The position numbers and the translations under genes were made by a program. DNA of 64,000 nucleotides, taken from positions 124,001 through 188,000 of the forward strand of contig JAPJBO010000179.1 of the NCBI GenBank assembly GCA_030068145.1, given 5' to 3'. The DNA is from Diplonema papillatum (taxonomy: Eukaryota > Euglenozoa > Diplonemea > Diplonemida > Diplonemidae). Below the pieces are notes generated by a model, which ran no database searches, had not been told where the DNA came from, and worked only from the letters and a program-made list of their open reading frames with translations. Shown here piece after piece: positions 7,657 to 42,975 of the stretch (positions within the stretch are counted from its first letter, which is position 1; each line of letters opens with the position of its first letter).

Positions 7657-8240
7657 CCCCTTTCAGTAGCTTGGAAAACGGAAACAGAAGCGCACACCTC
7701 CATCGACACTGACGACAACTATCGAAAGGAGATAATCTGCTGAAGTATCGGAACGGGGTCTGAAACGTCTTTCACACCATCTTCTGCTACTACCTTTCTT
7801 TGGTTGACTGAAGCGCGCCATGAAGGCTTGTAAATGTCCAACAAACAACAGGATAGAGCTTGGGATACTCGTACTGGGCAGGGTTAAGGTGTGGCCTCAA
7901 CGCTGAAGTCAAAGTGGTAAACACCGAGCCCAGTTGAGTGTCGAAGACACCCCAACCCAGTCCTTGTTGCATACGCTGTGCTCTTTCGCCCAAAAGCAAG
8001 GTCTTGAAGAGAGGGAGGGGTGGCTTCAGGTAGCGGTCGCTTCCCCCGTTCAACCCCCCCGTCCGGCAAGCTGCCCAGACGGCCCACACGGCCCCGCTGC
8101 GACGCGTCGCAGCGGGCGCCGTCACGGGCACTTGTGGCAGCAGCGCCGCGAAGGACAACCACAGCAGCAACAACAAGAAGAACCCGTGGGCGCCGACGAA
8201 GCCGCCCGTCAGCGGGTATCCCCCGCAGCGCAGGGAGAGC
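7657..8240 (+). pseudogene. Dead tandem copy of the promoter and first codons of the SecA-like fusion gene
   Basis: This block repeats at 8262-8834. From the start site onward, the indels between the copies (near 8135 and 8170) are multiples of three, so the copy once preserved a reading frame. The position equivalent to the ATG at 8715 is ACG at 8124-8126, and the frame runs into unrelated sequence after about 8240. The copy therefore cannot start the same protein. It might still act as a promoter, because its upstream part is intact. Confidence 0.75.
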
Positions 8241-8714
8241 GTGAAGAGTGAATTGACAAGACCCTTTCAGTAGCTTGGAAAACGAAAAACAGAAGTGCAC
8301 CTCTTCATCGGCAACTCTCCAACTAGCGAGGAAGTAGAGAATCTGCTGGAGCCGAACAACTTCCTAACAGAGGTCGCAAGACACCAATCTGATCATCCCT
8401 CGGGATCGACGGTGACACAATAAATGTCCAAAAACAAACAGGATAGGGCTTGGGATACTCGGAACTGGGGCAGGTTAAGGTGCGGCCTCAACACTGAAGT
8501 CAAAGTGGTAGACACCGAGCCCAGTTGAGTGTCGAAGACACCCCAACCCGGTCCTTGTATACGCTGTGCTCTTTCGCCAAAAGAAAGGGCTAGAAGAGAG
8601 GGAGGGGTGGCTTCAGGTAGCGGTCGCTTCCCCCGTTCAACCCCCCCGTCCGGCAAGCTGCCTAATAAGACGGCCCACACGGCCCCGCTGCGACGCGTCG
8701 CAGCGGGCGCCGTC

Positions 8715-11700
8715 ATGGGCACTTGCGGCAGCACCGCGAAGGACAACCACGGCAGCAACAACAAGAACCCGCGAGCGCCGACGAAGCCGCCTGTCAGCGG
8801 GTATCCCCCGCAGCGCCGGGAGAGCTTGAAGGCGGGGAGGGACGCGGCGCAGGTCGTCCAGTCGGCAGGCGCAGCGAAGCGGCGCACGTCGCTTGACAGC
8901 GGCAGCAGCGCCGCCGCCACCGGTAAGTCGGCGTACGTGCGCTCGCACACCCACCAGCCGACTCACACGCCGACGGACAATCAGCTCGACCCCGAGAACA
9001 CCCCTCCTCCCGTGTCTTACGCGGACATCCCGCCGTCCCCTCCACGGGAGCACGTCAGCCCTCGCCGGTTGTCCGTCCCACGGCCTTCTTCCCTGTCCCT
9101 CACCACCGAGCAAGACCTGCTGCATGTCCTCCGGCAACCAGACCCTGTCGCAGCGCATGCCGACGGGACTCCGAAGGACTTCCAATCCATCAAAACCAAG
9201 CCGCGGAAGCCCCCCGGCGCTGTGTCTCCCGCAGTTCCGTATCCGAAATCCCCTGCGTTCGATCCGCCAGCCCGCCCGCCGCGCAACCTGCCGAAGCGGT
9301 ACCGCCGCTGGGCGCCGGCGTGGACGTACGAGGAGGTGCCCCACGGGGCCGACTACACCGTGCGCAACGGGCTGTACTGGGTCGCGATTCCCGAGAAGAA
9401 GGCGGGGCTGCGCGACTTCCAGACGCGCCTCGGAAGATCGTCCAGCGGCCGGTCCCTGAACGTGTCCCGGATCGACACCGGCGGCACCCTCACCTCCAAA
9501 GTGTCGACCGACGGCACGAACACCTCCGACGAACCGGAAGACCGAAAAACCCCGGAGGACGAGGAATTCGCCCTAGACGACGACGACCCCCTCCTTTCGA
9601 AGTCGCTGACCCTCAAAACGACAGTGTCGTTCAGCAAGAGCTACCGCAACCTCGCCGCAGACCCGAGCATCCTCAAAAAGGACACGTTCACGCTGCCCAT
9701 CGTCCCGGTCGGCTCCGGATGGGTTTTCTACTACGTCCGCGAGAACCTGCCAGTCGGAACCGACGACGCGATGGTGGAAAAGTCCGGGTTCGGGCTCTGG
9801 CTGCAGACGACGAAGGAAGCGGCCGACCCGGCGGAGGAGTTCTTCGAGGGGAGGACGAAGCCCGCGGCCGAGGTGCTGGGGGTGAAGGGGCTGCCCTCGA
9901 ACATCCCGAGGCTCCGGAAGAAGAATTTCGTGTGGGTGCCGTACAAGGAAGGCGTCGTCGACGTGCCGTTTCACAAGGACACCACGGTGACAGCCGGCGT
10001 ATTCAAAGACAAGGCGACCGGCCTCGTGTGGCAGAGCTACCGGAAGGACTGCGTCCCGGCCGGAGAACTGTCGTTTTCGACCGAGCCCCCTCAGGACCTG
10101 AACGCCAGCGACCCCCACTTGTCAGCGACGGCCCCCGTGCCTCGCGCATCCGACAACGGCAAGCTCGCCGACCAGCCCGAGCAGACGCGGCTCTTCACGA
10201 AGCACCCCCGTCTGCACCTCAAGTCCGAACCGACCGCCCAAGGCTCCCCTGGGTCGCAAGCCTCGCAGGCTTCATCCTCCTCGTTTTGGGACAACTCCAC
10301 CCACGGTCCGTCCGAGTCCCACCGGAATAGCTGGACGCGGGAGTCCGACATGTTGAAGCCGCCCGGGAACCTGCCGAAGGTGAAGTACTCGGGCATGTTC
10401 TGGTACCCCTTCCTCATCCTCGACCACGTGCCGGAAGGCACGCAGTACGCGGCTTGCACCGAGGACGAGTTTCCCGTTTACTGGGCGAACTTGAACCGGA
10501 TCCAGGCGGCGCGGTACAATTTCGGGAAGAAGTACCCTGCGGAGTACCAGTCGTTCGCTACGATCGACCGGCTCAACTTCGGCATGCTGTCTGAGCGGAT
10601 GTTCCCGAAGGTGCTGCCTGGGGAAGGTTGGGTGTACTATGGGCTGCAGGCCGAGAGGCTGCCGCCGAACGTGGGGAAGGAGGGCGAAGGGGAGAGGAGC
10701 TGGATGGTGCTGCACGTCACGAACGGGGTCCATTGGGTGAAGTGCGCGAAGGACGCGGCAGAGCCGGGGGAACCGTGGGTCGCGGGGATCGTGGCCGAGG
10801 CAGGGGATGCGCAGGAGGCGGTGCGGCAGGCCGACGAGCAGTTTCGGCAGGCGCGGAGGAAGCCGCCGTCGCCGCTGCGGTTCACCAGCGGGCAGCAGGC
10901 GGTCCCTGGCGGCGGGGGCTACCCGGTCAGCGTCGTGGTCAACGTTCAGCGGATCAGCACCGGCTCCGTCTGGGTCGCGCACGTCGAGCAAGATGAGGTG
11001 GAAAACAGGTTTTTACGCTTCCCCGAGATCAACAACGGGGACCCTGTCTTCCGGCGCGGCGCCATCCGCTGGGTCGCGTACAACCTCTCCTGCGCGCCGG
11101 CGGGGAAGCCGAAATACGCCGGCCGCACGCAGCCCCACGCGGAGCTCCTCGGCATCAAAACGGTCCGCCAAGCCTTCCTCCCGCACCCGCCGCCTGACTC
11201 CCTTGGGGAGGCCAGCGTGTGGATCCCGTTCCCGTCGGAGGACCACATTCCGCCGGCGGCGGAGCTCGCGATCGTCGCGGCGTTCGACTGCAACCTGACC
11301 GAGACCGGCGACCTCGAGTGGATCGACGAGGACGAAGAAGCGCTCGTCGCGGAGTTCTCGTCCGCCAACCGGAAGCACGCATCGCCCGGTGCGAAAAGCG
11401 ACTCCGGCAGCGGCGACGATGGAAGCCCGCCGGCATCACCGACGGGCGGCCTCGACGAGACCATCAAAAAGTGGTCCGCGCAGAAGTTGGCCGACGGGAA
11501 GCGGCGGGTGCTCTGGCGGCTTGCGAAGGGGTCGTACGGCGAAGGATTCCTGCCGTCTCGGAAGTCGTACGCCGAGGAGCTCAACGTGACGAAGATCCCG
11601 GATTCCCTGCCGAAGACCGCGAAGGGGCTGTTTTGGATCCCGTTTCCGGCCAACGCGCAGCTGATCCCGGAGCACCTGCGGGAGAGCGAGCGGGTGCTGA

Positions 11701-14700
11701 CGAACGGCGTGTTCTACGTCCTCGCGGACGAGGTGCCGAAGCCGGAGAAGGGGTTTCCCGCGACTGCGCTGCCGGACCTGCCGCGGGAGCTGCGGGCCCG
11801 GTGGGCCTACGACGAAGAGATCGAGCAGCTGGTTCGCAAGAACCGCGGCAACGGGCTGCTGGTGCGCGCGGTCGCGAAGGCGAAGGCGCAGGGACTCGGC
11901 AAGAGGGACCTGCTGCAGCTCTGCCACCACGTGCTCGCCGCCGGGGCGCACAACGAGCGGTCCGAGGCCGTCGAGGCGATCTTGAAGGCCCCGCAGGTCA
12001 GACTTCCCTTTTTACCTTTTTTACATAAGCGCCAGCTTCCCGAAGAAAATGCTCGACGAAGCTGCCAGGCAAAGAACCGAAGGGATTCGTAACTACCGAA
12101 CCGCGTGTTGAACGGACGTGAGGTGATGCGGGTCTACCCGCCCGTGACAAGACACACAAACTCAGGTCAAAAGTCCTGAGTGAAAAAATACTCGAGGGGC
12201 TGCCTTGTGCTTACTTCGAAGGAGGCTAAAGGGGGAGAAACAATACAACTACAAAATGGGTCTTTTTTGTTAAACGCTTACGCCCGCCACTAAACCCAGA
12301 TTCACCTGTGTTTCGTGTGGGCTGCAGCACATTTACCTCCTTTGATCTTTTGCAGCTGGCAGCCTCCTCAAGTATTTCCTACAAAGCAGGTGCCTATACA
12401 AAAAAAACTTGTAGTTGTAGTGTTTCTCCGAGCACAAGGGAGCCCCTCGAGTATTGTGAACTAGCCGCATGCAGTGAGTGTGCAGGCTGTTCAACGAAAA
12501 CAACTCTCTCTTCACATCATCATCAGCATTGTCATTTGGGGGGAAACGGTCAATATTTCCCGGGGGAGAAAGTAGCTGTTTTTCAGGGGACTTTGGAAAC
12601 CCGGCTTCCCGGTTTCAGAAACCGGGGGTTTTCCGGTTTCGGTTTTTCAAAACCTCTCACCACCCCCCTCCGCCCCCTTGTTTGCGTGCGCGGGGCGACG
12701 GTTCCAGGCACTCAGACACCCACAGGCACCGCAGAGCCCCAAAACCGGGGTTTTGGCTGAAACCGGCTTTTTTGCTCAGTCAGACAAAGAGCTAAAGGCC
12801 CCTGTGTTTTTGCCACCAGTGGCTTATATATGGGTCTGGTGCTCGGACCAAGTCCGAGCAACCAAAAAAAAAAAAAGCACAGAATGATGCCCCGGCTGAG
12901 GGGCCCAGTAGTAGTGCTGCAGTACAGCAGTCACACTAGCAGTACACAGCACCGGTTACTGCACCGTTGGATCATCGTTGAAGCAACGTACAGCCTCAAA
13001 TTTGTAACCTGCGGCTGGCCCAATAGCTTGAAAAAAATTTCCGCGCCTGCGGCGCTGGTATTTCTGGCTTGAGTATTGGTTCATGACGTGTTGCCAAGAA
13101 AGCGAAGACCGCGGCTGTCCGCCCTTGCAGATTACTGCCAAGTGTTCTTGAATGATCCCGGCACACTGCTACAGTACCCCAACACTCGCCGTCTTCGCAT
13201 GGCTCTTTTGCTTCCCGAAGGACAGTCTCTGTGGTGGACAGTAGTGACAACCACAAAAGAGGTGCACCCTGTCGGGTACATAAACGTGCAGTTGTGCCGC
13301 AACTGGGATTTTTAGCGTTATTTGTGGATTAGAAAAAAAAAAAAGACCGGTTCGGGTGGTGTTAGCATTTGTTATACGTAGCTAGTTCTACGATGCCTCC
13401 GCTTTTTCCTTATCGGGAGCATTGATGCATGATGCACTCTGACCCGCACCGCAACCCGCAGGTGAGAGGCTCGAGGCAGTGGGCGCAGACTGTGATCGAA
13501 GCCATGGCGCCCGACACGCACCGCCAGGCGAAGTTCGCGGACTCCGCCCTCGAAGCCTTCGTGAAGACGAACACGCGGCGGTTCCAGCAGCCGTTCCCGA
13601 ACATCCAGCGCGACTACACCGACCTCCAGAAGCTGCTCACCCGCAAGCGCGAGCCGGCGGCGCCCGACGCCGCCGCCCCCGGGATCACGGCCCAGCAGCA
13701 CCAGGCATCGCGCGTGTCCGCGTCGGTCTACGGCCGGAAGCGACTGATAAAAAACGTCCGCACGACGATGGCCGACGCCGGCGGCGGCAAGCCGGCACTA
13801 CCGGCCCTGCCGCCGCCGGGCGAAATCGCGACCAAGCGCGGCTTCGAGAAGCTGCTGTGGGAGACGCTAGCCATCAACGTGTCGAGTACTTCGAACGAGA
13901 AGCGTGTGCGGCTCCTGTACCTGATCTTCGAAGCCGTGTTCCTTGTCCACCACTTCCGACCGACTTGCGCGCAGGTGCTCGCTGTCTTGTGCATGACGGA
14001 TCGGTCGTCCTTCGGGTCTGGAGGTGGCATTGGAGAGATGAAGACGGGCGAGGGGAAAACGATCACGATCGCCATGGCTGCCGCGTATGAAGTGCTGATC
14101 AGAGGCTGCCAGGTTGACGTCGTGACGTCGTCCGAGATTTTGGCGCGCAGAGACGCGGAGAAGGCGCGGATCTTCTTCGACTTCTTCAACATCTCCGTCG
14201 ACCACAACTGCCACCGCATGAACGAGGACTCAGGCGCGCCGATGAAGAACAACACGGAGGTGTACAAGGCGGACGTCGTCTACGGCACCGCGGCCGAGTT
14301 CCAGTTCTCGTTCATCCGCGACGTGTATCTCAACAACAACGAGCGGGGATCCCGCGGGTACCACGTCGCGATCGTCGACGAAGTCGACAACATGCTCATC
14401 GACGAGAGCGGCCGGCACGCGCGGCTGTCGTCCGCAATCGCCGGCATGGACCAAGTGCACTGGATCTACTACTTGATCGCGAAGCGGATAGGAGAGTGGG
14501 ACGAAGTCAACCGCGACGAGGTGAAAAAACAGGTCCTCGAGCACCCGTCAGTCAAGAACGTGTCGCCTGCGCTGCTCACCCCGCTGATCGACGCCCATTT
14601 GGACAGCTGGATCAAGAGCGCGGATCGGGCGAAAACGTACGCGAAGAAGAAGGAATACGTCGTCGCCGACGACCAAGTCGTCAACGTCGACTGCGACAAC

Positions 14701-16611
14701 ACAGGGGTCATCCAGCGGTCTACCGTGCTGTCCCACGGGGTCCACCAGTTCTTGCAAGTGAGGGAACGGGTCCCGGTTTCGGACGAGTCGATGACGGGCG
14801 GGTTTTGTTCTGTCCTCGCGTTCTTCCAACTCTACGGGTACAAGACCGGGCTGACGGGGACGCTCGGTGAGGACGAGGAGCAGCGGGAGTTCCACGCGTG
14901 CTACCAACTGGGGTTCTTCCAAATCCTGCCGAATTTCCCGGTCACGCGGGAGGAGGTGTTCGACGTGGTCGTCGGCGAGGCGGCGTGGCTGGGGAAGATT
15001 CGGCGCGCCGTGCAGAAGCAAGCGGTCAACGGCGACCGCCCGGTGCTGATCATCTCGGAGAACATCCAGCAGTCCGAGACGATCTACGCGCACCTCCAGG
15101 CCGAGCTGTTCGACGCCGCGAAGCAGCCGCCCGACGCCGCCGCGCCCGCCGGCAAACCAGCAGGCAGCGCCGCGGGGCCTCCTGCCGGGCAGGAGCGGCG
15201 ACGGAGCTCGCTGCAGATGCACCGACACGCGCTCGAGGCGCAGGTGAAAAAACGGCAGGACGAGCAGACCAGCGCCCGGCGCCCGCCGGCCGCCGCGGCG
15301 AAGGGCGGGGAGCGGACGGCTCCGTCGGGGGTGCAGTCATACACGGGGATCCAAGCGGACAAAACGGAGCAGGACATCCTCGACGAGGCGGGTCACCCCG
15401 GCGTGGTCACGTGCTCGACGAACCTCGCCGGGCGGGGGATGGACATCGTGACGACCGAAGCTTCCGAAGCCCGCGGCGGGCTCTACGTCATCTGCTCGTT
15501 CCTCCCAAAGAACAGCAGGGTCGAGCTGCAAGCCGCCGGCCGGACCTGCCGGCAGGGGAAGAAGGGCACGTTCCACCTAATAACAGAGTCGCCCGTCGAA
15601 GCGAACATCGACGACCTCAAAAAGCACCGCAAAACACACAGCCAGCGGCGCGCGGAGCACAAGCTGAGCGTCGTGGTTCCAGTCGGGAAGTTCACAGCCG
15701 ACCTTTTCAGCGAGTTCTGCGCCCTCAAAAACGCGTCGTTCGACCACCGTGACCCGGCGAAAACCCCGAACGGAGGACGCCTGAGCGAGAGCACGAAGCG
15801 GGTGGCGCTGTCGACGAACCTGCCGATGCACGGCAAGTACGAGAAGCGGTCGTGGCGCGAGCAGTGGATGGGGTTCATGCAGCGGTTCCAGCAGGACCAC
15901 GACGGCGCGCAAACCGCCGACCAGGCGGCGGCGTTCGTCGAGCGGCAGCAGAAGTACTTCAACAGCTTCACGAAGTCGCTTACGTCGGACCTCCGCACCG
16001 GCCGCACGATCCGCAACCCGATTCAACTCGCCCGCCGAGCGTCTGAATACATCTTAGACGGCAGATACTTCCTCGCACGCTCCGACATCACCCACGCCCT
16101 TGAACTGCCCACCGGCCAACACGCCACGGTCTACCTCCTGCAGGCCATCGTCGCCAGCAAGCTCTCTTCGTCTCCCCGCGATCTTCCGTCGGTGGTCCGG
16201 CCTTTGGAGCAGGCGTGCGCGCTGTACAAAAAGTGGCTCTCGCACGTCGAGACGACGCGCCTGCTGATCCCGCAGGCGTCCCGGAGCCTCGTCATCACCG
16301 AGGTTCTTCAAGAGCAGGTCAAGCACTGCGAACTCGCCCTGCACGACCTGCGAGCCTGGGGCAACAACCAAGAAGGCGTCGACAAGCTGAAGGATCTCAT
16401 CGATCTCGAGCCGAACGGCGGGAAGGTGTACACGTCCGAGGCGGCCCCGGGGACGGCGGGGAACAACGCGGTGCGCTTGAAGAGGCTCGGGATCGTCGGC
16501 AAAATCGTGTCGTCGTTCCACGCCGCGAAGCTGAAGACCATGCGGGCCCACCTGTTCAGCCGCGAGAACGTCGTCATGCCCTCGTCCCCCGAGCGCGTCG
16601 CAGCTGAGTGA
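8715..16611 (+). CDS. W-x-P-F repeat protein fused to a SecA-like ATPase, predicted N-myristoylated
   Basis: Two exons, 8715-11996 and 13462-16611, both phase 0 at the junction, give about 2,143 residues. The ATG at 8715 starts M-G-T-C-G-S, which fits N-myristoylation with a nearby palmitoylatable Cys. Residues about 195-1020 hold some eight modules with W-V/I-P/A-F/Y and a following V/I-P (near 197, 333, 403, 560, 636, 784, 833, 971). The second exon is SecA-like: Walker A G-E-M-K-T-G-E-G-K-T near 1286, Walker B V-D-E-V-D near 1397, a G-L-T-G-T motif, L-A-G-R-G-M-D near 1748 and G-R-T-C-R-Q-G near 1788. A shortened preprotein-crosslinking-like segment lies between. The usual SecA C-terminal scaffold is replaced by a helical, TPR-like region from about 1950. 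The donor GTCAGA at 11997 is atypical. If it is not used, the first part would end at 12092 and the ATPase would be a separate gene. Confidence 0.75.
11997..13461. other. Intron of the SecA-like fusion gene, filled with repeats
   Basis: A 1,465-base phase-0 intron. The donor is CAG|GTCAGACTTCCC and the acceptor CCCGCAG|GTGAGA. It contains an R3 repeat at about 12170-12425. A purine/pyrimidine-skewed region at 12535-12770 has several aaccggggtttt / ggtttcagaaacc inverted motifs. The rest shows no coding bias. Confidence 0.6.
12170..12425 (+). repeat. Dispersed repeat, family R3
   Basis: It contains gaaaaaatactcgaggggctgccttgtgcttacttcg, then ggcggagaaacaatacaactacaa, then ccgccactaaacccagattcacctgtgtttcgtgtgggctgcagcac, and ends near acaaagcaggtgcctat. 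Other copies: 20550-20800 (+), 46675-46815 (-), 58285-58510 (-). Diverged or partial copies: 3085-3206 (-), 35350-35500 (+), 51960-52070 (-). Confidence 0.8.
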
Positions 16612-16800
16612 CCGACCAAACAGACTCACACCGCTGTCCTGTCTGCAAACCCTCAGGTTCCGTGCTGATAGTGGTCCGCCTCAAGTGTGTCGGTGGCTTG
16701 AAGGACCGAAACACGGCCAGACGGGGCCAGAGCGGTGTTGAGCACATATCCATTTCAAGTACGTTCTTGCGATTCTCCTCCCCAAGAGACGGAGACGCCG
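16612..16800 (+). repeat. Dispersed repeat, family R2
   Basis: The unit reads approximately ctgacaaaccagactcacaccgctgtcctgtctgcagacactcaggttccg, then a ggtccgcct segment, then gaccgaaacacggc, then gttgagcacatatccattccaagcacgttc. Copies: 22644-22845, 50563-50725, 50985-51175 and 52845-53045 (all +), with fragments at 17140-17215 and 22850-22950. This copy abuts the stop codon of the SecA-like gene and may form part of its 3' untranslated region. Confidence 0.8.
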
Positions 16801-16804
16801 CCAT

Positions 16805-17125
16805 CATCGTGGTTCTCCAAGAGCAGGTCAAGCACTGCGAACTCGCCCTGCACGACCTGCGAGCCTTGGGGCAACAACCAAGAAGGCGTCGACAAGCTGA
16901 AGGATCTCATCGATCTCGAGCCGAACGGCGGGAAGGTGTATACGTCCAAGGCGGCCCCGGGGACGGCGGGGAACAACGCGGTGCGCTTGAAGAGGCTCGG
17001 GATCGTCGGCAAAAAATCGTGTTGTCGTTCCACGCCGCGAAGCTGAAGACCATGCGGGCCCACCTGTTCAGCCGCGAAAACGGCGTCATGCCCTCGTCCC
17101 CCGACAGCTGCGACGCGGCTGAGTG
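16805..17125 (+). pseudogene. Broken duplicate of the 3' end of the SecA-like gene
   Basis: It matches 16300-16611 closely. An extra T near 16866 and a lengthened A-run near 17012 shift the frame, so the copy no longer encodes the C-terminal helical segment. It still ends at the equivalent of the authentic stop (about 17125). An R2 repeat separates it from the parent gene. Confidence 0.85.
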
Positions 17126-17215
17126 AGTAGGCCGACTCTCAACCCCCCCTACCCGAGACTGCGCCTGACAAACCAGACTCAGACGACTGTACTGTCCTGT
17201 CTGCAGACACTCTGG

Positions 17216-17285
17216 AAGAGGGTGGCGCTGTCGACGAACCTGCCGATGCACGGCAAGTACGAGAAGCGGTCCTGGCGCGAGCGGG
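17216..17285 (+). pseudogene. Displaced internal fragment of the SecA-like gene
   Basis: About 68 bases match 15798-15865 (gggtggcgctgtcgacgaacctgccgatgc and following) with one or two changes. In the parent this lies upstream of the segment copied at 16805-17125, so the order is inverted in the duplicated material. Unrelated sequence follows. Confidence 0.8.
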
Positions 17286-30836: not shown

Positions 30837-31075
30837 GAAACATAAAACCCAAAACCCAAGGCCACCAGACACCTAGTATTTGGTGGCCAGCCACTACTGG
30901 GCGGCTGGTCCTTTTTCCCGATCGAATATACACACCTCCGAATCTAAACGGGCGAAGCCCGGCTTTTCTTTGCACCCCCCCATTGAACTAAGTTTTATCC
31001 CCCTTGACACTACCTCACCCATCCAGCCTACTCCTCCCCAAAAAAGAGGAGGGAGAGAAGAATTGGCGCCGAGCG

Positions 31076-34000
31076 ATGCCGTTGGGTTTGTCGCCCGCGT
31101 CGTTCAGCATCGCGAGACCGGCCGTCAGCGACGTGGGGTGGCTCGCCGACTCGAACGCCGCGAGAACCACCCAGCAGGGCGGCTTCCGCGCGGGGCAGCC
31201 GTGGGCGGGTGTGAGGCCTGCGGCGGAGCGAGCGCAGGTGTACCTGCTGACGGTCGAAAATGCTGAGGAGCTCACCCTTCCTGACACCAACGACGGGAGC
31301 CACATCTTCATCGAAGTGACGTCCGAGGATTCCGCGGAGACTGACGGGCCAACGACTCATTTTGCAACGACGGCGCGGGCGGAGTCCGTGGATCCGTCGT
31401 GGCATGAATCGTTCCCGGTGCTCCTGCCCTCAGACAACACGCTGCTCATCTTGTCGTTCACGCTCAAGCAGCACGTCGCGTCGCCTTGCGGCACCCGGGA
31501 ACCCCGTACCCTCGCCAGCGCCTCGCTTCCGCTATCCGTGTCGATGATCTCGGCCAAGATCCCGTGGCGATCGAGCCTCTTCCTCGGCACCGGCGCGTTG
31601 TTCCTCTCCATCCAGCACGGCCCCCTCCACAAACCGACACCCCCGCCCGTCGCGACACCCGTCCGCGTGGCGTCGGCGCCCCTGCTGTGCGAGCCCAACC
31701 GGGCCTTCACCGACGCTGAGGTCCGGGCGCAGCGCCCGCACTTCCAAGGAGGCATCCCGCGGGCGTACGCGAGCTGTCCGTCCGGGAGGAAGAGGCCCCC
31801 GGTCGGCTCGGACGGCGGGGTTAGCATGCCGAGCGTCAACTGCTCCGCAGCGAGGCTGCAGACCGAAAGCAATCCAGTGTCAGGAGGGTCCCTCAGACGC
31901 ACCGCGGAGCCGGGCCTGTCGGCATGCTCGGAAGGCGGGGTTAGCGTGTCAGGAGGGTCCTCCAGGCGCGGCATTGCAGAGCCGGGCCTGCCGGCACGCT
32001 CGGAAGGCGGGGTTAGCATGCCGAGCGTCAACTGCGCCGCAGCGAGGCTGCAGACCGAATGCAATCCAGTGTCAGGAGGGTCCCTCAGACGCACCGCGGA
32101 GCCGGGCCTGTCGGCACGCTGGGAAGGCGGGGTTAGCGTGTCAGGAGGGTCCTCCAGGCGCGGCATTGCAGAGCCGGGCCTGCCGGCACGCTCGGAAGGC
32201 GGGGTTAGCATGCCGAGCGTCAACTGCGCCGCAGCGAGGCTGCAGACCGAATGCAATCCAGTGTCAGGAGGGTCCCTCAGACGCACCGCGGAGCCGGGCC
32301 TGTCGGCACGCTCGGAAGGCGGGGTTAGCGTGTCAGGAGGGTCCTCCAGGCGCGGCATTGCAGAGCCGGGCCCTTCGGCACGCGGCGGCCGCGAACGAAA
32401 CAGCGGCGGCGGCGTTCTCGAGCCGCGCCGCAGCGACCCAGCCTCTCTGCCCGCAAAACCCGCGGCGGGGCCGAGCCCCGGCGGCGCGCCGTCTGAGGAA
32501 GGAAGCATCGGCGTCTCACCGGAGTCCGCGGAAACGCCGCCGCCGCTCGGACAGGGCACTCGCGCAGGCTTGGACGCCGGGGGCGCGGCCCGGCGGGCTG
32601 AGGCGAAGGTCTCCGTCGACGGTGGGGGATCGGAGCCGACAAGCGACAAGCCGAGGTCCGTTCGGTCGGACGCAGCAGGTCCCTCCATCGCGCGCGGCGG
32701 GCATGCCGCCGGGAGCGTCGCATCGGGTCTCGAGAGTGAGAGGCTGCGGGCCACACCCCCCGTCCAGCCCGGACCCGGGGGCGAGGAGAGCGTGCGGCCC
32801 CACGCGAACGCCAACGCGCAGGCTTCGCGCGCCGAGTCGCCGTCGCCCAGCCTCCCCGTCTCCCGCGCCGCGAGTGCGGCAAGCGGCGGTTCCGCCGCGA
32901 AGCGGCAGGCTCCGGCCGCCGCCATCGAACCCAGCGGCTTCGCGCCTGTGAAGCACGGCGGCTCCGCCGCGGCGGCACGGAGGGCCTCCGTCAACGACGG
33001 TTGCTCGGAGCCTAAAAGCGACAAGCCGAGGTCCGTTCGGTCGAACCCAGCAGGTTCCTCGATCGCGCGCAGCGGGTGCGACGACGCCGAGAGCGAGCAG
33101 CTGCGGTCCACGTCTCCCGCCCAGCCCAGACCCGGGAGCGAAGAAAGCGTGCGGCCCCACGCGAACGCCAACGCGCAGGCTTCGCGCGCAGAGTCGCCGT
33201 CGCCCAGCCCCGTCTCCCGCGCCGCGAGCGCGGCGAGCGGGGCCTCCGGCCCGAAGCGGCAGCTATCCGAGGCGTCGGGCCCCATCGAGCGCCGCCGCAG
33301 CTCCGGCCCGAACCCGCAGACACAGCCCTCCGCCATCGAACCCCGCGGCTACGCATCGGCTCCCAGCGGCTTCGCGCCTGTGACCGCAAGCACGGGCAGC
33401 AGGGTGGCACGGAAGGCTTCCGTCAACAACGACGGGTGCTCAAGCGAGAAGCCGAGGTCCGTTCGGTCGAACCCAGCCGGTTCCTTGATCGCGCGCAGCG
33501 GGCTCGACGACGCCGAGAGTGTCGCATCGAGCGAGCAGCCGCGGTCCACATCTCCTGTCCAGCCCGGACCCGGGAGCGAAGAAAGCGTGCGGCCCCACGC
33601 GAACGCCAACGCGCAGGCTTCGCGCGCCGAGTCGCCGTCGCCCAGCCTCCCCGTCTCCCGCGCCGCGAGTGCGGCGAGCGGCGGCTGGCAGCTGTCCGAG
33701 GCGCGGGCCGACCTCCAGCACCGTCGCAGCTCCGGCCCGAACCAGCAGGCTCCGGCCGCCGCCATCGAACCCCGCGGCTATGCATCGGCACCCAGCGGCT
33801 TCGCGCCTGTGACGGCAAGCACGGGCAACAGGGTGGTTCGGAAGGCCTCCGTCAACGACAGTTGCTCGGAGCCAAACAGCGACAAGCCGAGGTCCACGAC
33901 GCCCCCCTTGCAGCCCGGGAGTGAGGAGAGCGTGCGACCCCACGCGAACGCGGACGCGCAGACTTCGCGCGCCGCGTCGCCGTCGCCCAGCCTCCCCGTC

Positions 34001-37000
34001 TCCCGCGCCGCGAGTGCGGCAAGCGGCGGCTCCGGCGCGAAGCGGCAGCTGTCCGGGGCGCTCGGCCCCGGCCCGAACCCGCAGGCCCCGCCCGCCGCCG
34101 CCGACGCTTGCACCTACACGTCGGCGCCCGCGGAACACGGCCGAAAAGAAGCCGGTGACAGACATGCCGCCGCCGCCGAGAGACGCCGCAGCGGAGATCC
34201 CGGTGCGGATGCCGGCCGCACCTCCTCCGGCGAACTGGACACGAAGAGCCGGCAAAGCGGCGCTTCCGGCTCCGACGGCCGGAGGCGGCGCAGCGATGTC
34301 TTCGCGCACAGCGTGCGCGACGGCGACGCGAGCTCCGACGCCGGAACCGTCGCCGTCGACTCCGCCGCCGGGAGCCGCCGGAAGAGCGCCGGCTCCGGCG
34401 CGAACGGCGGCGTTTTTGCTCCCCCCGCGGCTCCGGCGCCGCGGCCGGCTTCGCTGGGCAGCACGCCGGCGTCGCTCTCGCTGACGATGCCGTCCGAAAC
34501 CCCGTCGCGCTCGCCGGGCTTCTCCGCGTTTCAACCGCTCGCGAAGCTGCAGTCGGCGACCAAGGGCAAGCCCGGGGGGCGTACCGCCGACCGGGAGCCG
34601 GCCAGCGGCGCGGCCGGCCGGCCGAGCTTCCAGGAGTGGGGCAAACCCGGCGGCGGGAGCCCGCCTGTAGCGACGAGCGAAAGCCCGTCTTTCGTGTCTT
34701 TCAGCCAGTCCGGCGATGCGAGTCTACCCGTCATGGACCTGCTCGGCCCGCTTCCCGTTGCGGCCGGGACCCAGCCGGATCTTCCCATCATGGACTTCAT
34801 CCCACCCTCAGCGAGCCAGTTGGATCTCGTTCCGCCTCCCTGCACAGCAAATAGCCAGCAGGATGTACCAGCCATAGACTTCATCCCGCCTTCAATCAGT
34901 CAGTTGGACCTACCACCCATGGACTCACTCGCCTTACGTCCGTTCAGCAGCCAGTCTGGCAAGTCGAGCCCGCTCGTGATGGACTCACTCTTCCTCTTTC
35001 CCCGTGCGGCAGAGCGCCGAGAGTCGGACCCCGCGATGGGACGAGTCACCCCGATTCCGGGTGCCGCCGGCGGGCGCGTCTCCGACGGAGACGAATCCGC
35101 GCCGTTGCCGTCGCTCCCCGCGGAGCCCCAGCCGTCGACCTCGTCGTGCAAGGACCCGTTCTCGCCCCACGCCACGCTTGCGGCCCCGCTGTCCGAAGTC
35201 TTCCTGCAGATCCCTGCGCCTGCGCTCCCCGCCCAGCCTGAGCATAAGCAGCGGCAGGATCCCGCCGACCTCCCCCCTCGTGGCAACCCTCCGCAGCGGG
35301 ACTCGACCATGTTGGAGCCCACCGATGTGACAGGTGCGCTCTTCCGTTGTCTTCTACAGAGGGGAGAGAAGCAACCCAACTCCAACTCCAAAAAAGGGGG
35401 TCTTTTCTTTGTGGAACGCTCACGCCCGGCACTATTCGCAGATTTACCTGGGTGGGCTTCGTGTGGGCCGCCTTTGAAGCTTTGCACCCGGCAGCCTCTC
35501 ACAGTTTCACCACGAAAGTCGATAACAGTTTTGGGTTGGAATGCAAAGAATATGTAGCGATGATCTGCATCGATATGAGAATTTCACACACACCTTCGGG
35601 TGTGGTTGGTTGAAACAAAAATCAAGCGAACTTTAACTCTAAAAGGAAAGTTTTCCCGAACCTCCGGTGACCTCGCCCCCCATCTGGGTTCCTCGGGTTA
35701 AGGCAGTCAACATTTTCTTGCGTTAGCGATATCAGTTACGAAGACGTGGTCTTACTTATCCTTTCTTCAAGGGCAGTTCTCGGCAGACAATACAAAGAGG
35801 AAAAACACCTCCAACGAGTTTGTTTCTGCGCACTTCCTTTAAACCTGTTTTGTGCATATAGTACGCTGCCATCGATCTGTTTTTGTTCTTGACAAATTGC
35901 ATTTGTTAGACACAAAAATCAGATGTTTACTCGACCACACATGCACACAGGCCGACGGGACATCGACCAAAGGGTTGCAGACTTGGAAAGCCAGCTGCAG
36001 CGCGCGCGAGAAGCGGTCGCCGAGAAGGCGCAGTTGCAGGAGCGGTTGGAAGAGAGCCTGCGCGGCGCGGCGGCCGCGCGGAAGCTCGCGGAGAGCGAGC
36101 GGGACGCGATGGCCAGCGAAGCGGCGGTGGCGCGGGAGCGCGTCGACCGCACCGGCGAAGACTACGCGGCGCTGCTGCGCGAGACGGCCGGGGCAACGGA
36201 GGCGTGGCAGCTCCGTGCGCAGGCGTCGGAGACGCAGCTGCGGCGGACGGTCGACTCGCTCGACGAGCAGCTCCGCGAGAAGAACGGCGCCCTCGCCCGC
36301 GAGACCGAGCTTGTCGCCCTGGCTGCGAGCCTCGCCGCCGTCACGGAGTCGGTGTCGGCGGTGGACGCGAAGGCGTTCGAGGCCGAACTGGAGCGCGACG
36401 CCGCCTTGCAAGAGCTCGCCGTCCTCCAGACCAGCGCCAGCGCCCGGGAAGACCGGCTCGCCCAAACGGGCCGCGCCGAGCTTCGCACGGAAGAGGAGTC
36501 CGCTCGCAACGCGGTGGAACTCGCTTACTGGAGAACGGCGGTGGACCTGCTGCAGGTGTGGCGTTTTCATCTGAAACCCGTGTTACTTTTACTCCTTCTT
36601 TCCTTGCCTACTTTGTTCTGTCGGCCGGAGGTTTTTAGGGTAGGGGACCTATTGCGGTTAACGGTACGGCCCGGTGCATGAGAACGAGATCTCCCCTGTT
36701 TTCTTATGGTAACAAGCTTGCTCAAAAAGTGTCGGATGGCAGCGTGCTAAATCTCCCAAAACAGGGTTTACACACTTTTCCACGAACGCGGGCAAACGGG
36801 AGTTTTCTGCACTTCTCGTTTTCCGCCGTTCTCCGTGCCTCTGACTGCTCAACAACTGCCACAGGTGCGAGAAACATCCTCAAAGTGCGAGGCCGAAGCG
36901 GAACAGCTTCTTCTGCAACGTCAACTGAGTGATCAAGCAAAGAGCTTTCAGGTATGCAATTGTGAAGCGCGAAAGTGCGGCTGAAATCCGAGGTTGCCTG

Positions 37001-40000
37001 AGGGAACTGCGGAGAGTTAGTCCGCGCGTTCCAGCTCGTCTCTCTCCCACTCTCTCTTTTTCCTTTTCGAGAAAGCGTGCGAGTCGTGCTGGAAATATGT
37101 GACCAGCCCGCTTGAAGTCTGTGAGCGTCAGATTTCCAAGTCCCTGCCGACAGTCACCCGGGTACTCTCACTCAAAAAATAAGCAACGATCGCTTGTGGG
37201 CGACTTCTCCAACGCACTTTGCAGTACCTGTCCATGGCGCTACGTAAACACAGTATGAATGTAGGTACATGATGGAGAGAGCCCTAAATTTAACACCACA
37301 GAGCACGCTCGACAAACACACCGCCGCCATTTCTCGCCACAAAGAGGTGGCAGACACCCTGCAGTTCGTCGTTGGATACTACAAGATCGAGAACAGCCTC
37401 GTTCTCTACAAACGGAGCGCACTAACTCTCTCGAGGATGTACTGGGACAAAGTATGCAGTTTTCTGTGTTCCTTTTTTGTAGTGAGGAAGCTTCCCTCAG
37501 AGATAGTCTCAGCACTCCAATTTGTCTCTCTCCTTTCCATTTTGTGCCTAGCAAATGCAATTTGTCAAGCACAAAAACCGATCGATGGCAGCGTGCTATC
37601 CTCACTCCCGTTAGATGGACAAAACAGGTTTGAAGGAAATGCGCACAAACAAAAGTGTAAATGCCTGCCGTTCATCGCGACGACATTGATCTTTCTACTT
37701 TGAAGTGGAGGACGTGGCCGCGGTTGAGTGGCCCGCGGAGGAGACGAAAGCTGATGAAAGAACAAGTTGTGCAAGTTGTCGGGGAACGACCAGACCACTT
37801 GCGCCGACGTCGGACTGAACAAATGGGTTCACAGGCTCATGTTCAGCGCAGATACCAAGTCCCAAGATAGGTTAGGAAATCGGTAGCCACTTGAGCATGA
37901 ACACGTCAGGGAGACTCACTGAAACCGCTGTCGAAGGTCACAAATGGTTCATGAAATCGGTAGCCACTTGAGCATGAACACGTCAGGGAGACTTTCACTG
38001 GAACCGTTGTCAAAGGTTACAAATGGTTTATGAAATCGGTAGCCACTTGAGCATGAACACGTCAGGGAGACTTTCACTGGCACCGTTGTCAAAGGTCACA
38101 AAGCCAGGCGTGCGTAGGAGTGCGTGGTCCACGCCGCGAAGTCGTTGGCGTGCGCCTCGATGGAGCGTCGATGAGTGCAGATCTTGGTTGTAGTAGCGAA
38201 TATTCAATGGAGAACATTGAAGGCCGAAGTGGAGAGGGTTTCCGTGTCAACAGCAATTGGACATGGGTCAGTCGGCCCCAAGGCAAGGTGTAATTGCTCG
38301 CCTCAAAGCTGCACCACTGAGCTTGCTCGGACGTGCAGGATTGCCGAAAGGGACTGCGTGAACATTCCGCATTTGCTGCACACCCGCACATGCACTGCTA
38401 CTACCACTAATAAGAAATGCATGCTTGTATACAATACCGTTAAGGAACCCTTTCGACGAATCACCCGGTGACTTTAACCCCCGGATCTTCAAAGCACACA
38501 CTCTAAACCCCCGGAATCAATAAACCCTCGAAACCCGCAAACCCGCAAACCCGCAAACGCCGCAGCGCAATGATTCCGGGCCGAGCTCGGGGGTGCCACC
38601 CGAGCCGTCCAGCACGCGGCGGTGACCTCGTCGAGGGCGGACCACGCGCGCGCCCTGGCGACCCGGTACTAACGGAAGCTCCGCGCGTTCGCCGCCGAGC
38701 GGGAGCTCGAGGCGCAGCGGCGGGCCAACCGCGACCTGCGGGCGGAGCTGCGCCGGCAAAAGGAGCTCGCCATCGCCATGGCGACGGTCGAACGAAGGCC
38801 GACGCCGCCAAAAACGAGGCGTGGCCTGGCCATGGGGTGTCATTTGCACGCCATTGCGTACCACACATGACTTGCTGCACACACGCACATGCACTGCTAC
38901 CACTAAAATGAGAAATGTATACCTGTATAGACAAAGAACCCTTTCGACGGATGGTCACCCGAGACTCGAAACCTCAGGATCTTCAAGCGAACATTCACTC
39001 TTAAAAAGCCCCGGAGTTTCAAGCGAACTTTCACGTGTAAAACCCCACGCGCAGCTCCGTCGCCACGCCGCAGCGCAATGCTTCCGGGCCGAGCTCGGGG
39101 GTGCCACCCGAGCCGTCCAGCACGCGGCGGTGACCTCGTCGAGGGCGGACCACGCGCGCGCCCTGGCGACCCGGTACTACCGGAAGCTCCGCGCGTTCAC
39201 CGCCGAGCGGGAGCTCGAGGCGCAGCGGCGGGCCAACGACGACCTGCGGGCGGAGCTGCGCCGATCCGAGCTCGCCAGCGCGCAGGCAAGGCCGGGAGGG
39301 CGCCCCGCCGAAAACGAGGCGGAAAGCGCTCGGCTCCCCCTCCTGCTCGATGAGGTCGACGGCGAGCGGGCACCACGGGCGAGCGCGGCGGAGCGGCGGT
39401 TGCGCGACAGCCTCGCTGCCCTCGACCGGGAGAAGGCGGCCGCGGCGCGCCTGCAGCAGCGGCTCGACGAACTGCAGGAGCTGGAAACCCAGCGCCAGCA
39501 CGGCGTCCAGCACGGCGTCCAGCACGGCGTCCAGCACGGCGTCCAGCACGGCGTCCAGCACGGGAAGGCAGCGGCAGGCCGCCTAAAAGAAGTGGACATC
39601 GTGAAATTCGCCGTCGAAGACGCCGGGTCCCGCGGGGAACGCGGGACTCGCGGTTCCATCCACCAAGCGGAGCTTCTCGAGGCGAACCGGCTCCTTTTCG
39701 AAGCCGAGCGCAGAGCATGCCGCCTCGCCGAAGAGCTCAAGCTCGCGCGCCAGGGAAACGACGAAGAACCACAGGCCGGCCGCTCGCCGCCGTCGGACAT
39801 CGGCGCGCTGCAGGAACGGCTGGGAGAGTGCCAGGCGGAGCTGCTCGAGACAAATCAGCTCCTTTTCGAGGCCGAACGCGAAGCCAAACGCCTCGCCAAC
39901 GAGCTGAAACACGCGCGGCAGCGAAGCGACGAAGAAACCCCGGCCGGCGGCTCGCTGCCGTCGGACGTGAGGCTGGAAGAGTGCCAGGCGGAGCTCCTCG

Positions 40001-42975
40001 AGGCAAGTCGGCTCCTTCTCGAGGCCAAACGCGAAGCCAAACGCCTCGCCAGCGAGCTGAAGCACGCGCGGCAGCGGAGCGACTCCGAAGCCCCGGCCGG
40101 CGGCTCGCTGCCGTCGGAAGTGAGCGCGCTGCAGGAGCGGCTGGAAGAGTGCCAGGCGGAGCTCGACGACGCCGAGCTGCGCGGGCAGCGCGACCACCGC
40201 GAGCTCTCCGCCCTGCGGAAGCAGACCGTCCGCGCCGAAGTCGCGGAACGGCTGGCCTCCGCCGAGAAGGCGGCGCTGCAGGCGCGGCTGGAGGAGGAAG
40301 AGGCGCAGTACGACGCGATGGCCGCCGAGCTGAAGGCGGCGAGCCTCCGGTCCCAGCAGCGCCGCCGCTGCGCGGAGCCGCTGGAGGACGAGCTGGACTC
40401 GCTGAGGGACCACGCTGCCCGCGCAGAGGCAGCGGAACGGCTGGCGGCTGCCGACAGCGCCGCGTTGCAGGCCCGGCTGGAAGAAGCCGGGGCCTGCATC
40501 GACGCGTTGCGCTCCGAGTTGGCGACAGCCGACGACCTGGCGCAGCAGCGCCTGCGGGAACTGGTGGACTTGGGCAACAAGTTCGACGTGCGGAGCAACG
40601 AAGCCGCAGAGCTGCACGCCCGTTTGAACGAGCGCGAGGCGCAATTCTCCGCGTTGCAAGCCGAGAAGAAGGCGGCCGACAACCTGGCACGGCAGCGGGA
40701 ACACGAGCTCGCTAACTTGGAGACTGAGCTTGACTCGCTTCGGAACGGGGCTTCGGTCCTGCAAACCAGTTTTGGCGAAGGCGAAGCGCCAATCGAAGCA
40801 TCACACGACGTCGAGCAGAAGGTGGCCAACCCAACGAAGCAGCGAGACGGAGCCCCCGCTGAGGAAGAGGCACGATCGGAATCATCCCTTAGGGCCGAGC
40901 TGCAGGCAGCAAACCGCCTGGCAGAGCAGCGGAGGCGCGAGGTCATCCAATTGAGGGATGAACTCGACTCGCTGAGGGACGAAGCCTCCGCCGAGAAAGC
41001 GGCGCAGGAGACCGGTTCCGATGGGGACGGGGCGCAGTCCGGAGCATCGCTGGAGGCTGAGCTGCAGGCGGCGACCAACCTGGCGGAGCAGCGGAAGCGC
41101 GAGCTGATTCGCTTGGGGGAAGAGTTTGACTCGCTGAGGGGCGCAGCCTCCGCCGAGGAGGCAGCACGGGAGACCCGTTTGAACGAAGACGAGATGCAGT
41201 CCGAGTTGTCGCTCGAGGCGGAGCTACAAGCGGCAAACCAGCTGGCGGAGCAGCGAAAGCACGAGCTGGTTGAATTAAGAGACGAACTCGACTCGCTGAA
41301 GGACGAAGCCTCCGCCGAGAAAGCCGCGCTCGAGACCCGTTTGAACGAAGACAAGGCGCGATTCGAAGCATCGCTGGGGGCCGAGCGGGAGGCGGGGGAG
41401 CAGCGGAAGCGCGAGCTGGCTCAATTAAGGGGCGAACTCGACTCGCAGCGGGACAAAGCCGCCGCCGAGAAAGCGGCGCTCGAGGCCCGTTTGAATGAAG
41501 ACGGGGCATCGCTGGGCGCCGAGCTCCGGGCGGCAACCCGCCTGGCGGAGCAGCGGAAGCGCGAGCTGGTCCGCTTGGGGGAAGAGCTCGAGGCGCTGCG
41601 GGAGGAGGCCGCCCGGTCTGCCTCCAACGAGCGGCGGCTGCTGGCGGAGAAGGCGGAGCTGCGCCGCCTGGGGGAGAAGGACGGCGCGCGGTCGCGGGGG
41701 GCCGAGCTCGAAGAGGACGTCGGCAAAGCGAGGACGAAGGAGGCCGAAACGTGGCGGGAGGGCATGCGCCAGCGCTGCCAGGTCGGCGCGGCGCGGCATC
41801 AAGGAGACGAGGCTTGGACGGGTAAATTGGACCCACCAACCCGTTCGGAAGAGGACGTCGGCATAGCGAGAACCAACGAGGCTGAAACGCGGCAGCTAGG
41901 CATGCACCAGCGCTGCCCACATCCGGGAGACGAGGCGTGGACGGGTAAATCGGACCCGCCAACCCGTTCGGAAGAAGCCGCGCCCCGGACGAGCTTTCCC
42001 GCAGCCTCTCCTCCGCATCGGGTCGACCGCGCCATCGAGGACACCGACATCGACTCGCCGCCGATCATCACCGTAGTTTCCGAACGCCGGCTCTCGCCGT
42101 CGGAGGCAGTCGATGACGCTGGAAGCGGGCGGCCGCCGGGAGATGCCCTGCTGCGGGAACGGCTCCGGGGCGTGATGGAAGAGCTCGGCGACGTTCGGGC
42201 GCAGAAGTGCGGGCTCGAGGCAGAGCTCGAAATAGAGCGCGAGGCGGCTTGCGGCCTGCAGCGGCAGCTCCAGCTCGCGAAGGAGGAGCGGCGGCGCGCG
42301 GAGGCCGCCCTCCACGAAGACGTGCGCGCCGGCGCGGAACAGCTGCAGTCAGCCGAATCCGAAGCTCGCAGGCTCGGGCATGACCTCGAAGACGAGGAAG
42401 AGCGCGCCCGGTACCTGGAGCGCGAGTTGAAGTGCGAACAGAGCGAGACCCACAGGCTCGCGAAGCTCGTCGCGTCGAGCCCAAACACACAACACGGCAG
42501 CTTCCGCCGCGCCCAAAAGCTCAACCGCAGCAACTCCGCTGACTTTTCAAGCCCGAAAACACCCGAGACAGAACCTGGGACTGCGAACGAGGTGTGCGTC
42601 GTCTCAACGGCGCATCGGTCACCCGGCTTCGACTCGCCAGCAAGTGATGAGTCGTCGATGAGTTCCCCCGAGCGGCCGCGTCACCGTCAGCGTCTCACCG
42701 GAGAGCCGGAGGATGCATCAACCAGCGAGCGCCAGCGGCACGAGGAGAACTACGGCAAGATTGCGGCGTGCTTGCAGCCGGTCGTCCGGCGCGTCGACGA
42801 CGCGGGCGCAGCGGCCGACCTCGCCTCGTTCGCGGTGCTGCTCGCCGCCGCCGCCGCGCGCGACCTCTCGTCGGCGCGCCACCTCCTGCAGCAGCACCAA
42901 GCCGAGTCGCAGACGCGCCGCGAGTCGCTCTTGGACCTGCGCTCCGCCATGCGCGAGCAGCGGATGTGGCCGTAG
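31076..42975 (+). CDS. Giant C2-domain / coiled-coil protein, five exons
   Basis: Exons 31076-35333, 35951-36555, 36865-36951, 37302-37451 and 39055-42975 join with matching phases, total 9,021 bases and encode about 3,006 residues. Residues about 50-175 look like a C2 domain: beta-strand pattern, and S-V-D-P-S-W-H-E-S-F at the place of the usual N-P-x-W-N-E-x-F. Acidic loop residues are few, so calcium binding is doubtful. Residues about 245-440 contain three 64-residue tandem repeats. About 500-1010 holds further Ser/Pro/Ala-rich repeats, and the rest to 1419 is disordered. From 1420 to about 2990 the sequence is Glu/Ala/Leu/Arg-rich coiled coil with a run of H-G-V-Q repeats (39494-39562). 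This suggests a membrane-contacting cytoskeletal or organelle-linking scaffold. If exon 4 joins differently, a small exon near 37697-37800 with high GC3 might belong, but its phase does not fit. Confidence 0.75.
31814..32389 (+). repeat. Three in-frame 192-bp coding repeats
   Basis: Units start at 31814, 32006 and 32198 and are almost identical. 192 is a multiple of three, so each adds exactly 64 residues containing P-S-V-N-C-A-A-A-R-L-Q and R-R-G-I-A-E-P-G. A looser set of repeats (E-E-S-V-R-P-H-A-N-A-N-A-Q and K-P-R-S-V-R-S) follows in the same exon to about 34030, four copies of roughly 270-400 bases. Confidence 0.9.
35334..35950. other. Intron 1 of the C2 / coiled-coil gene
   Basis: Donor GTGCGCTCTTCC, acceptor catgcacacag, one base before and two after (Gly codon). 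A diverged R3 repeat fills 35350-35500, and an inverted R1-type segment lies at 35848-35915. Confidence 0.65.
37875..38110. repeat. Tandem repeat, 78-79-bp period, three copies
   Basis: gaaatcggtagccacttgagcatgaacacgtcagggagact starts at 37875, 37953 and 38032, each followed by accgytgtcaaaggt-type sequence. Confidence 0.9.
38385..38820 (+). pseudogene. Dead duplicate of the 5' part of coiled-coil exon 5 and its upstream intron
   Basis: 38561-38765 matches 39068-39270 at an offset of 507 with few differences, and the intron flank 38385-38525 matches 38880-39015. In the copy the codon equivalent to TAC is TAA at 38670-38672, closing the frame, and the downstream part is diverged. The intact copy is the one used by the gene. 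Confidence 0.8.

Follow-up and report, generated by a model that had tools for sequence, protein, structure and literature searches.

A 64,000-nucleotide window of the Diplonema papillatum genome (contig JAPJBO010000179.1, positions 124,001 to 188,000) contains a two-exon gene, at window positions 8715-16611 on the plus strand, which very probably encodes a non-canonical SecA-type motor as part of one eukaryotic gene. SecA is textbook bacterial secretion machinery and moves polypeptide. In the window protein, the motor is preceded by a lipidation-type N-terminus and eight degenerate repeats marked by Trp and Pro (W/P repeats), an arrangement which tentatively suggests a tethered polypeptide-remodelling role, for which the chances are below even. 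Taken as one reading, this identity of the motor and its membrane-tethered polypeptide-remodelling role are about as likely to be right as wrong.

The motor is recognized by its domains, motifs and fold. SecA_DEAD (PF07517), which covers nucleotide-binding domain (NBD) 1 and part of the clamp region, matches positions 13891-14892 with E=1.2e-40 and 140.1 bits (cut-off 24.6), and a part of NBD2 that carries motifs V (GRGMD) and VI (QAAGRTCRQG), at 15358-15558, matches PF21090 with E=1.1e-11 and 45.2 bits (cut-off 27). Both nucleotide-binding domains are above the Pfam cut-offs, and the protein falls within the SecA superfamily and has the SecA fold. The Walker A TGEGKT (14044-14061), the DEVD of motif II (14377-14388), TGT, GRGMD and QxxGRTxRQG correspond in the alignment to E. 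coli Q87, K108, D209/E210, R509, D512, R574 and R577; as the first-pass annotation had it, both domains are kept. Walker A, DEVD and the motif V and VI arginines are intact. A stretch of NBD2 (15112-15354) holds an Ala/Pro/charged insert of about 70 residues that is absent from nine aligned relatives, one of which (L013) ends before the site.

The same annotation set this ATPase of a eukaryotic gene apart from secretory SecA, and the sequence agrees. The canonical SecA equivalog cut-offs of NCBIfam are missed by a wide margin (206.5 bits against 800 for TIGR00963, 216.9 against 814 for NF009538), and the preprotein cross-linking domain is incomplete: PF01043 covers 46 of 110 positions (14617-14754) with E=0.0018 and 19.3 bits, where the cut-off is 23.5. 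A shortened preprotein-binding part had been proposed, and it holds in a qualified way: the DEVD-to-TGT spacing is 159 residues, below the ranges of both comparison sets (164-192 in 13 canonical-type and 190-227 in 16 effector-type sequences), and the 46 residues recognized as SecA_PP_bind are a sub-threshold match. By contrast, the idea that the C-terminal scaffold is simply replaced by TPR-like helices does not hold, as the predicted model retains a 45-residue helix a short way past NBD2, and alignments of full-length SecA chains extend to residue 839-880 of the model. Beyond it lie a helical module (EQW...IRNPxxL, 15832-16044; 11.6 bits), similar to a module of giant bacterial proteins described below, and further helices (16045-16608) visible in the model and the alignment, TPR-like by eye; a Pfam scan of the helical tail returned no TPR match and none of note. 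Since this tail weakly resembles its counterpart in the bacterial giants, there is no need to see a new replacement in it.

The motor and the N-terminal half appear to be parts of one gene. Exon 1 (8715-11996, 1094 codons) is an open frame that encodes the lipidation-type N-terminus, a low-complexity stretch, the repeats and the start of a helical-looking linker; exon 2 (13462-16611; 1049 codons to 16608, then TGA) encodes the motor and the helical C-terminus. Joined in phase 0, as first annotated, they read through 2143 codons without a stop. The splice was placed from genomic sequence alone, using open frames, codon bias and the content of the gap. A stop stands at 8526, and the next ATG in frame is the start at 8715; there the GC content at third codon positions (GC3) rises from 0.58 over 62 codons (8529-8714) to 0.87 in the 30 codons that follow, before it dips to 0.67 further downstream, at 9075-9254. 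GC3 is 0.91 in 11100-11996 and 0.42 in 11997-12089, 31 codons that are still open; this drop, in a frame open to 12092, makes exon 1 look spliced at 11996 in phase 0. Across the inferred GT-AG intron (11997-13461, 1465 nt) the coding bias is absent, with GC3 of 0.48-0.58 in the stretches measured (0.58 in 13363-13461), and returns to 0.91 in 13462-13800.

The gap itself contains repeat-derived DNA. About 500 of its 1465 nt (12817-13315) belong to a high-copy mobile element found in at least 40 other places. These are the 40 that were scored out of 5702 first-look candidates; identity is 90% in one and 93-97% in the other 39. A hairpin-type stretch (12187-12455) holds nested 25-nt and 21-nt inverted repeats that are 96% and 95% complementary. 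The direct repeat CCCGCAG/GT[C/G]AGA spans both splice junctions (11990-12002 and 13455-13467) with 12 of 13 nt identical, a likeness matched by 6 of 200,000 random GT/AG pairs drawn from the window. Together with the mobile DNA and the step in codon bias, it is as expected from an intron inserted into a once continuous frame.

The N-terminal half looks new. The protein does begin with the M-G-x-C noted at first: MGTCGS (8715-8732), read directly from the sequence, is a candidate site for N-myristoylation (G2, S6) and palmitoylation (C4), matching the pattern for a myristate on G2 next to a palmitoylatable C4. The eight repeat units, of 50-82 residues each, lie at 9285-9435, 9702-9908, 9903-10100, 10371-10592, 10593-10817, 10950-11195, 11199-11390 and 11595-11810, all on the plus strand; units 2 and 6 carry a GRTxPxAExLG motif, unit 4 has WYPF, and units 7 and 8 have WIPF. 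Each unit was held out in turn and compared with 1000 shuffles, of which 895-980 were scored. Six units did better than all, or all but one, of the scored shuffles; the weak first unit (10 of 978 shuffles as good) and the sixth (44 of 921) did not. Of the about eight W-x-P-F repeats first described, six units are upheld; the literal W-x-P-F is present in three of the eight. A two-unit model (units 2 and 3) consists of beta strands at a mean predicted local distance difference test (pLDDT) score of 73.5.

As had been supposed, these repeats are unfamiliar: they matched no family or fold among those tested. Exon 1 has no match in Pfam, NCBIfam or the plasmids, and the repeats have none of note in Pfam, PDB sequences or PDB folds. 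The DM9 profile (PF11901) does not match exon 1, whole or in pieces, and with the repeat profile the single DM9 frame of the genome does not outscore shuffles. That frame, L035 on contig C1158, spans 771 codons and continues, by eye, into a glycosidase-like part. In the Diplonema genome, the sole other match to exon 1 is a 65-residue upstream fragment.

By profile and diagnostic residues, the motor is nearest to those carried by giant, toxin-like proteins in intracellular bacteria, with examples in Rickettsiales, Legionella-type and Cytophagales bacteria. In a tblastn search against plasmids, the best match is a 5225-codon gene of Candidatus Megaera polyxenophila (E 8e-35), from which the search led on to Candidatus Bandiella and Legionella geestiana. 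A pattern scan of a genome collection returned 14 loci, six with canonical SecA, one (L022) unplaced and seven of the window-motor kind: two from one Rickettsiales metagenome-assembled genome and one each from a Rickettsia endosymbiont, Cytophagales, Orientia, Bandiella and Legionellaceae. Among 174 genomes from the same order as genome G002, 11 have the kind at E <= 1e-40. A separate, weaker match (frames of 885-986 residues) occurs in four of six genomes or records searched, and the three of these placed in trees fall with canonical SecA. On the Megaera plasmid (CP113870.1), another frame of this motor kind (L040, 39338-40138) lies near the 5225-codon gene; it was included in the 30-row tree.

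On a profile of the giant-protein kind the window motor reaches 364 bits, against 228 on a canonical profile, and at 32 diagnostic columns it has the giant-kind residue in 20, the canonical one in seven and neither in five. With the giants (Megaera L006, Bandiella L011, L015, L027) it shares motor motifs and diagnostic residues, its helical tail weakly resembles theirs, and signatures such as IAGMDQ and HQFLQ are common to it and Megaera. The giants differ in their flanks: they have HEAT-like N-termini, by eye, and, in the two that were scanned for domains, a WHH/colicin-DNase domain at the end (L027, an IMG/VR contig) or an OTU peptidase domain with a TPR match below cut-off (L015, Cytophagales). 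The window protein instead has the lipidation-type N-terminus and W/P repeats and no C-terminal peptidase or nuclease domain; in the alignment, by eye, its frame stops about where several giants enter a hydrophobic segment and variable C-termini. With canonical SecA and SecA2 it shares fold and catalytic motifs, but it has other diagnostic residues, an incomplete clamp and, by eye, no cysteine-rich zinc tail.

A SecA in a eukaryote is not new in itself. A 2013 report describes a 'eukaryotic secA' clade that includes Wolbachia wBol1_1092 as well as homologues in ants, Daphnia, other insects, Tetrahymena and Polysphondylium; these SecA-domain genes of eukaryotes are distinct from those for bacterial SecA, and there has been exchange with Wolbachia and Amoebophilus (PMC3639933). 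Like the window protein, members of this clade are described as having a SecA domain in long eukaryotic proteins traded with intracellular bacteria; the passages on it mention neither a lipid anchor nor W/P repeats (PMC3639933). Phage WO is reported to have two SecA homologues (PMC5062602), and a survey of Amoebophilus effectors mentions SecA-like helicase-related domains (PMC3482391). Among the papers that literature searches listed, none describes in its title or abstract opening a SecA-domain protein with a lipidation-type N-terminus or such repeats, and the MGTCGS start and the eight repeats look new.

The Diplonema genome (271 Mb, 2910 contigs, the window being part of contig C179) holds four more SecA_DEAD frames (L002-L005; contigs C215, C919 and C835), single open frames of 845-1499 codons that belong to the same superfamily as the window motor but are of another kind. 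They lean the same way on the two profiles, e.g., 136 against 71 bits for L002 and 91 against 43 for L004. A D-[AG]-T-x-S stretch, by eye, suggests a vWA-like tail; L002, whose piece is cut at that tail, has no Pfam vWA match. L004 and L005, with about 13 kb between them, hardly differ in sequence.

These features suggest how the protein might work. A myristate and a palmitate on G2 and C4 would hold it at the cytosolic face of a membrane, the beta repeats would serve to bind a partner, and the motor's two nucleotide-binding domains would open and close on ATP, gripping and pulling a polypeptide in a small clamp. The protein would then remodel or thread polypeptide at the membrane, neither serving a SecYEG channel nor unwinding nucleic acid. 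A bolder scenario, in which a eukaryote, probably a protist, turned the motor of toxin-like giants of intracellular bacteria into a host protein with a two-lipid anchor and recognition repeats of its own, a polypeptide-pulling translocase or disassembly motor free of the Sec channel and acting, e.g., on vacuoles or endosymbionts, is a long shot. Genome reports mention the SecA motor in eukaryotes and in toxin-like proteins of intracellular bacteria, and their passages on it contain no functional test; a compact version from a eukaryote, one that lacks the toxin parts and may be anchored to a membrane, would be a tractable handle on what the motor does outside secretion.

Where the motor came from is less clear. 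Only the profiles and diagnostic residues speak clearly, and the trees leave its position unsettled. The trees and comparisons included neither plastid SecA nor members of the published eukaryotic secA clade. A 29-row tree places the window motor with the bacterial giants (69/61) and weakly rejects a grouping with the genome's other SecA frames (p-AU, from the approximately unbiased test, of 0.04). The motor family has moved between bacteria and eukaryotes, and the possible transfer first suggested fits a family prone to it.

Several observations pull away from a non-canonical motor with a tethered role. In the 29-row tree, a grouping with canonical SecA is not rejected (p-AU 0.375); in the 30-row tree, the window motor sits beside the long canonical stem (81/41) and the clade with the giants is not recovered; in both, its branch is long (1.78 and 1.64). 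Seven diagnostic columns are canonical, and in length the clamp region falls short of both SecA kinds. The quality of the predicted model is middling, at a mean pLDDT of 55.9, and the likeness of the helical tail to its bacterial relatives is weak, at about 12 bits against 5.8 for the best shuffle (2045 scored of 3000). Neither the genome itself nor the plasmids yielded a relative that shares the N-terminal half. An in-frame ATG at 13429 is followed by 11 codons, up to the acceptor, with GC3 of 0.91. Finally, a polypeptide substrate is suggested by the fold alone.

A nucleic-acid helicase merely descended from SecA is an unlikely alternative. DEAD-box and other helicases match the motor core too, and the first-pass term 'helicase-like' suits the fold only; SecA chains nevertheless lead in structure matching with far lower E-values, SecA entries alone appear among the phmmer matches listed, and the clamp remnant and the long helix after NBD2 are retained. 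Codon bias by itself leaves room for a second start at 13429, and the locus could be two genes, a repeat protein that ends near 12092 and an ATPase that begins at that ATG. The lack, in the genome and the plasmids, of any relative of the fusion's N-terminal half would suit this division, but the fall in GC3 straight after 11996, despite the open frame, and the mobile DNA and direct repeat of the gap render it improbable.

The remaining explanations concern the origin and state of the motor gene. A recent transfer from a Rickettsiales-type endosymbiont to the host nucleus is very unlikely: the nearest named relatives do include endosymbionts of ciliates and arthropods, but identity to relatives is about 35% at best (34-36%), the long branch lies outside the sampled bacterial set, and host-like codon bias, the intron and an N-terminal domain of its own make the copy look old in its lineage. 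Partial copies of both gene ends flank the gene and might point to a decaying or rearranged locus, i.e., a pseudogene or mis-assembly: a diverged copy of the 5' end, interrupted by an internal TAG (7831-8246), one taken from the 3' end of exon 2 (16799-17104) and a second, short one of exon 2 sequence (17215-17282), all on the plus strand. With 2143 open codons, strong codon bias and intact motifs in the main copy, this seems very improbable. Diverged canonical or plastid SecA is extremely unlikely, since the tree results that favour it stand against the profile scores and the giant-kind residue at 20 of 32 diagnostic columns, both set against canonical SecA, and the lack of any light-harvesting match in the genome of what is probably a heterotrophic protist.

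The eukaryotic origin of the window follows from a fragment of eukaryotic large-subunit rRNA (38190-38425, 72.6 bits) and from its interrupted genes. Elsewhere in the window, a voltage-gated chloride channel gene (45269-49342) is interrupted, with Voltage_CLC in two open frames, and open frames of 1517 and 1384 codons, at 31004-35557 and 38821-42975, have no confident Pfam match.

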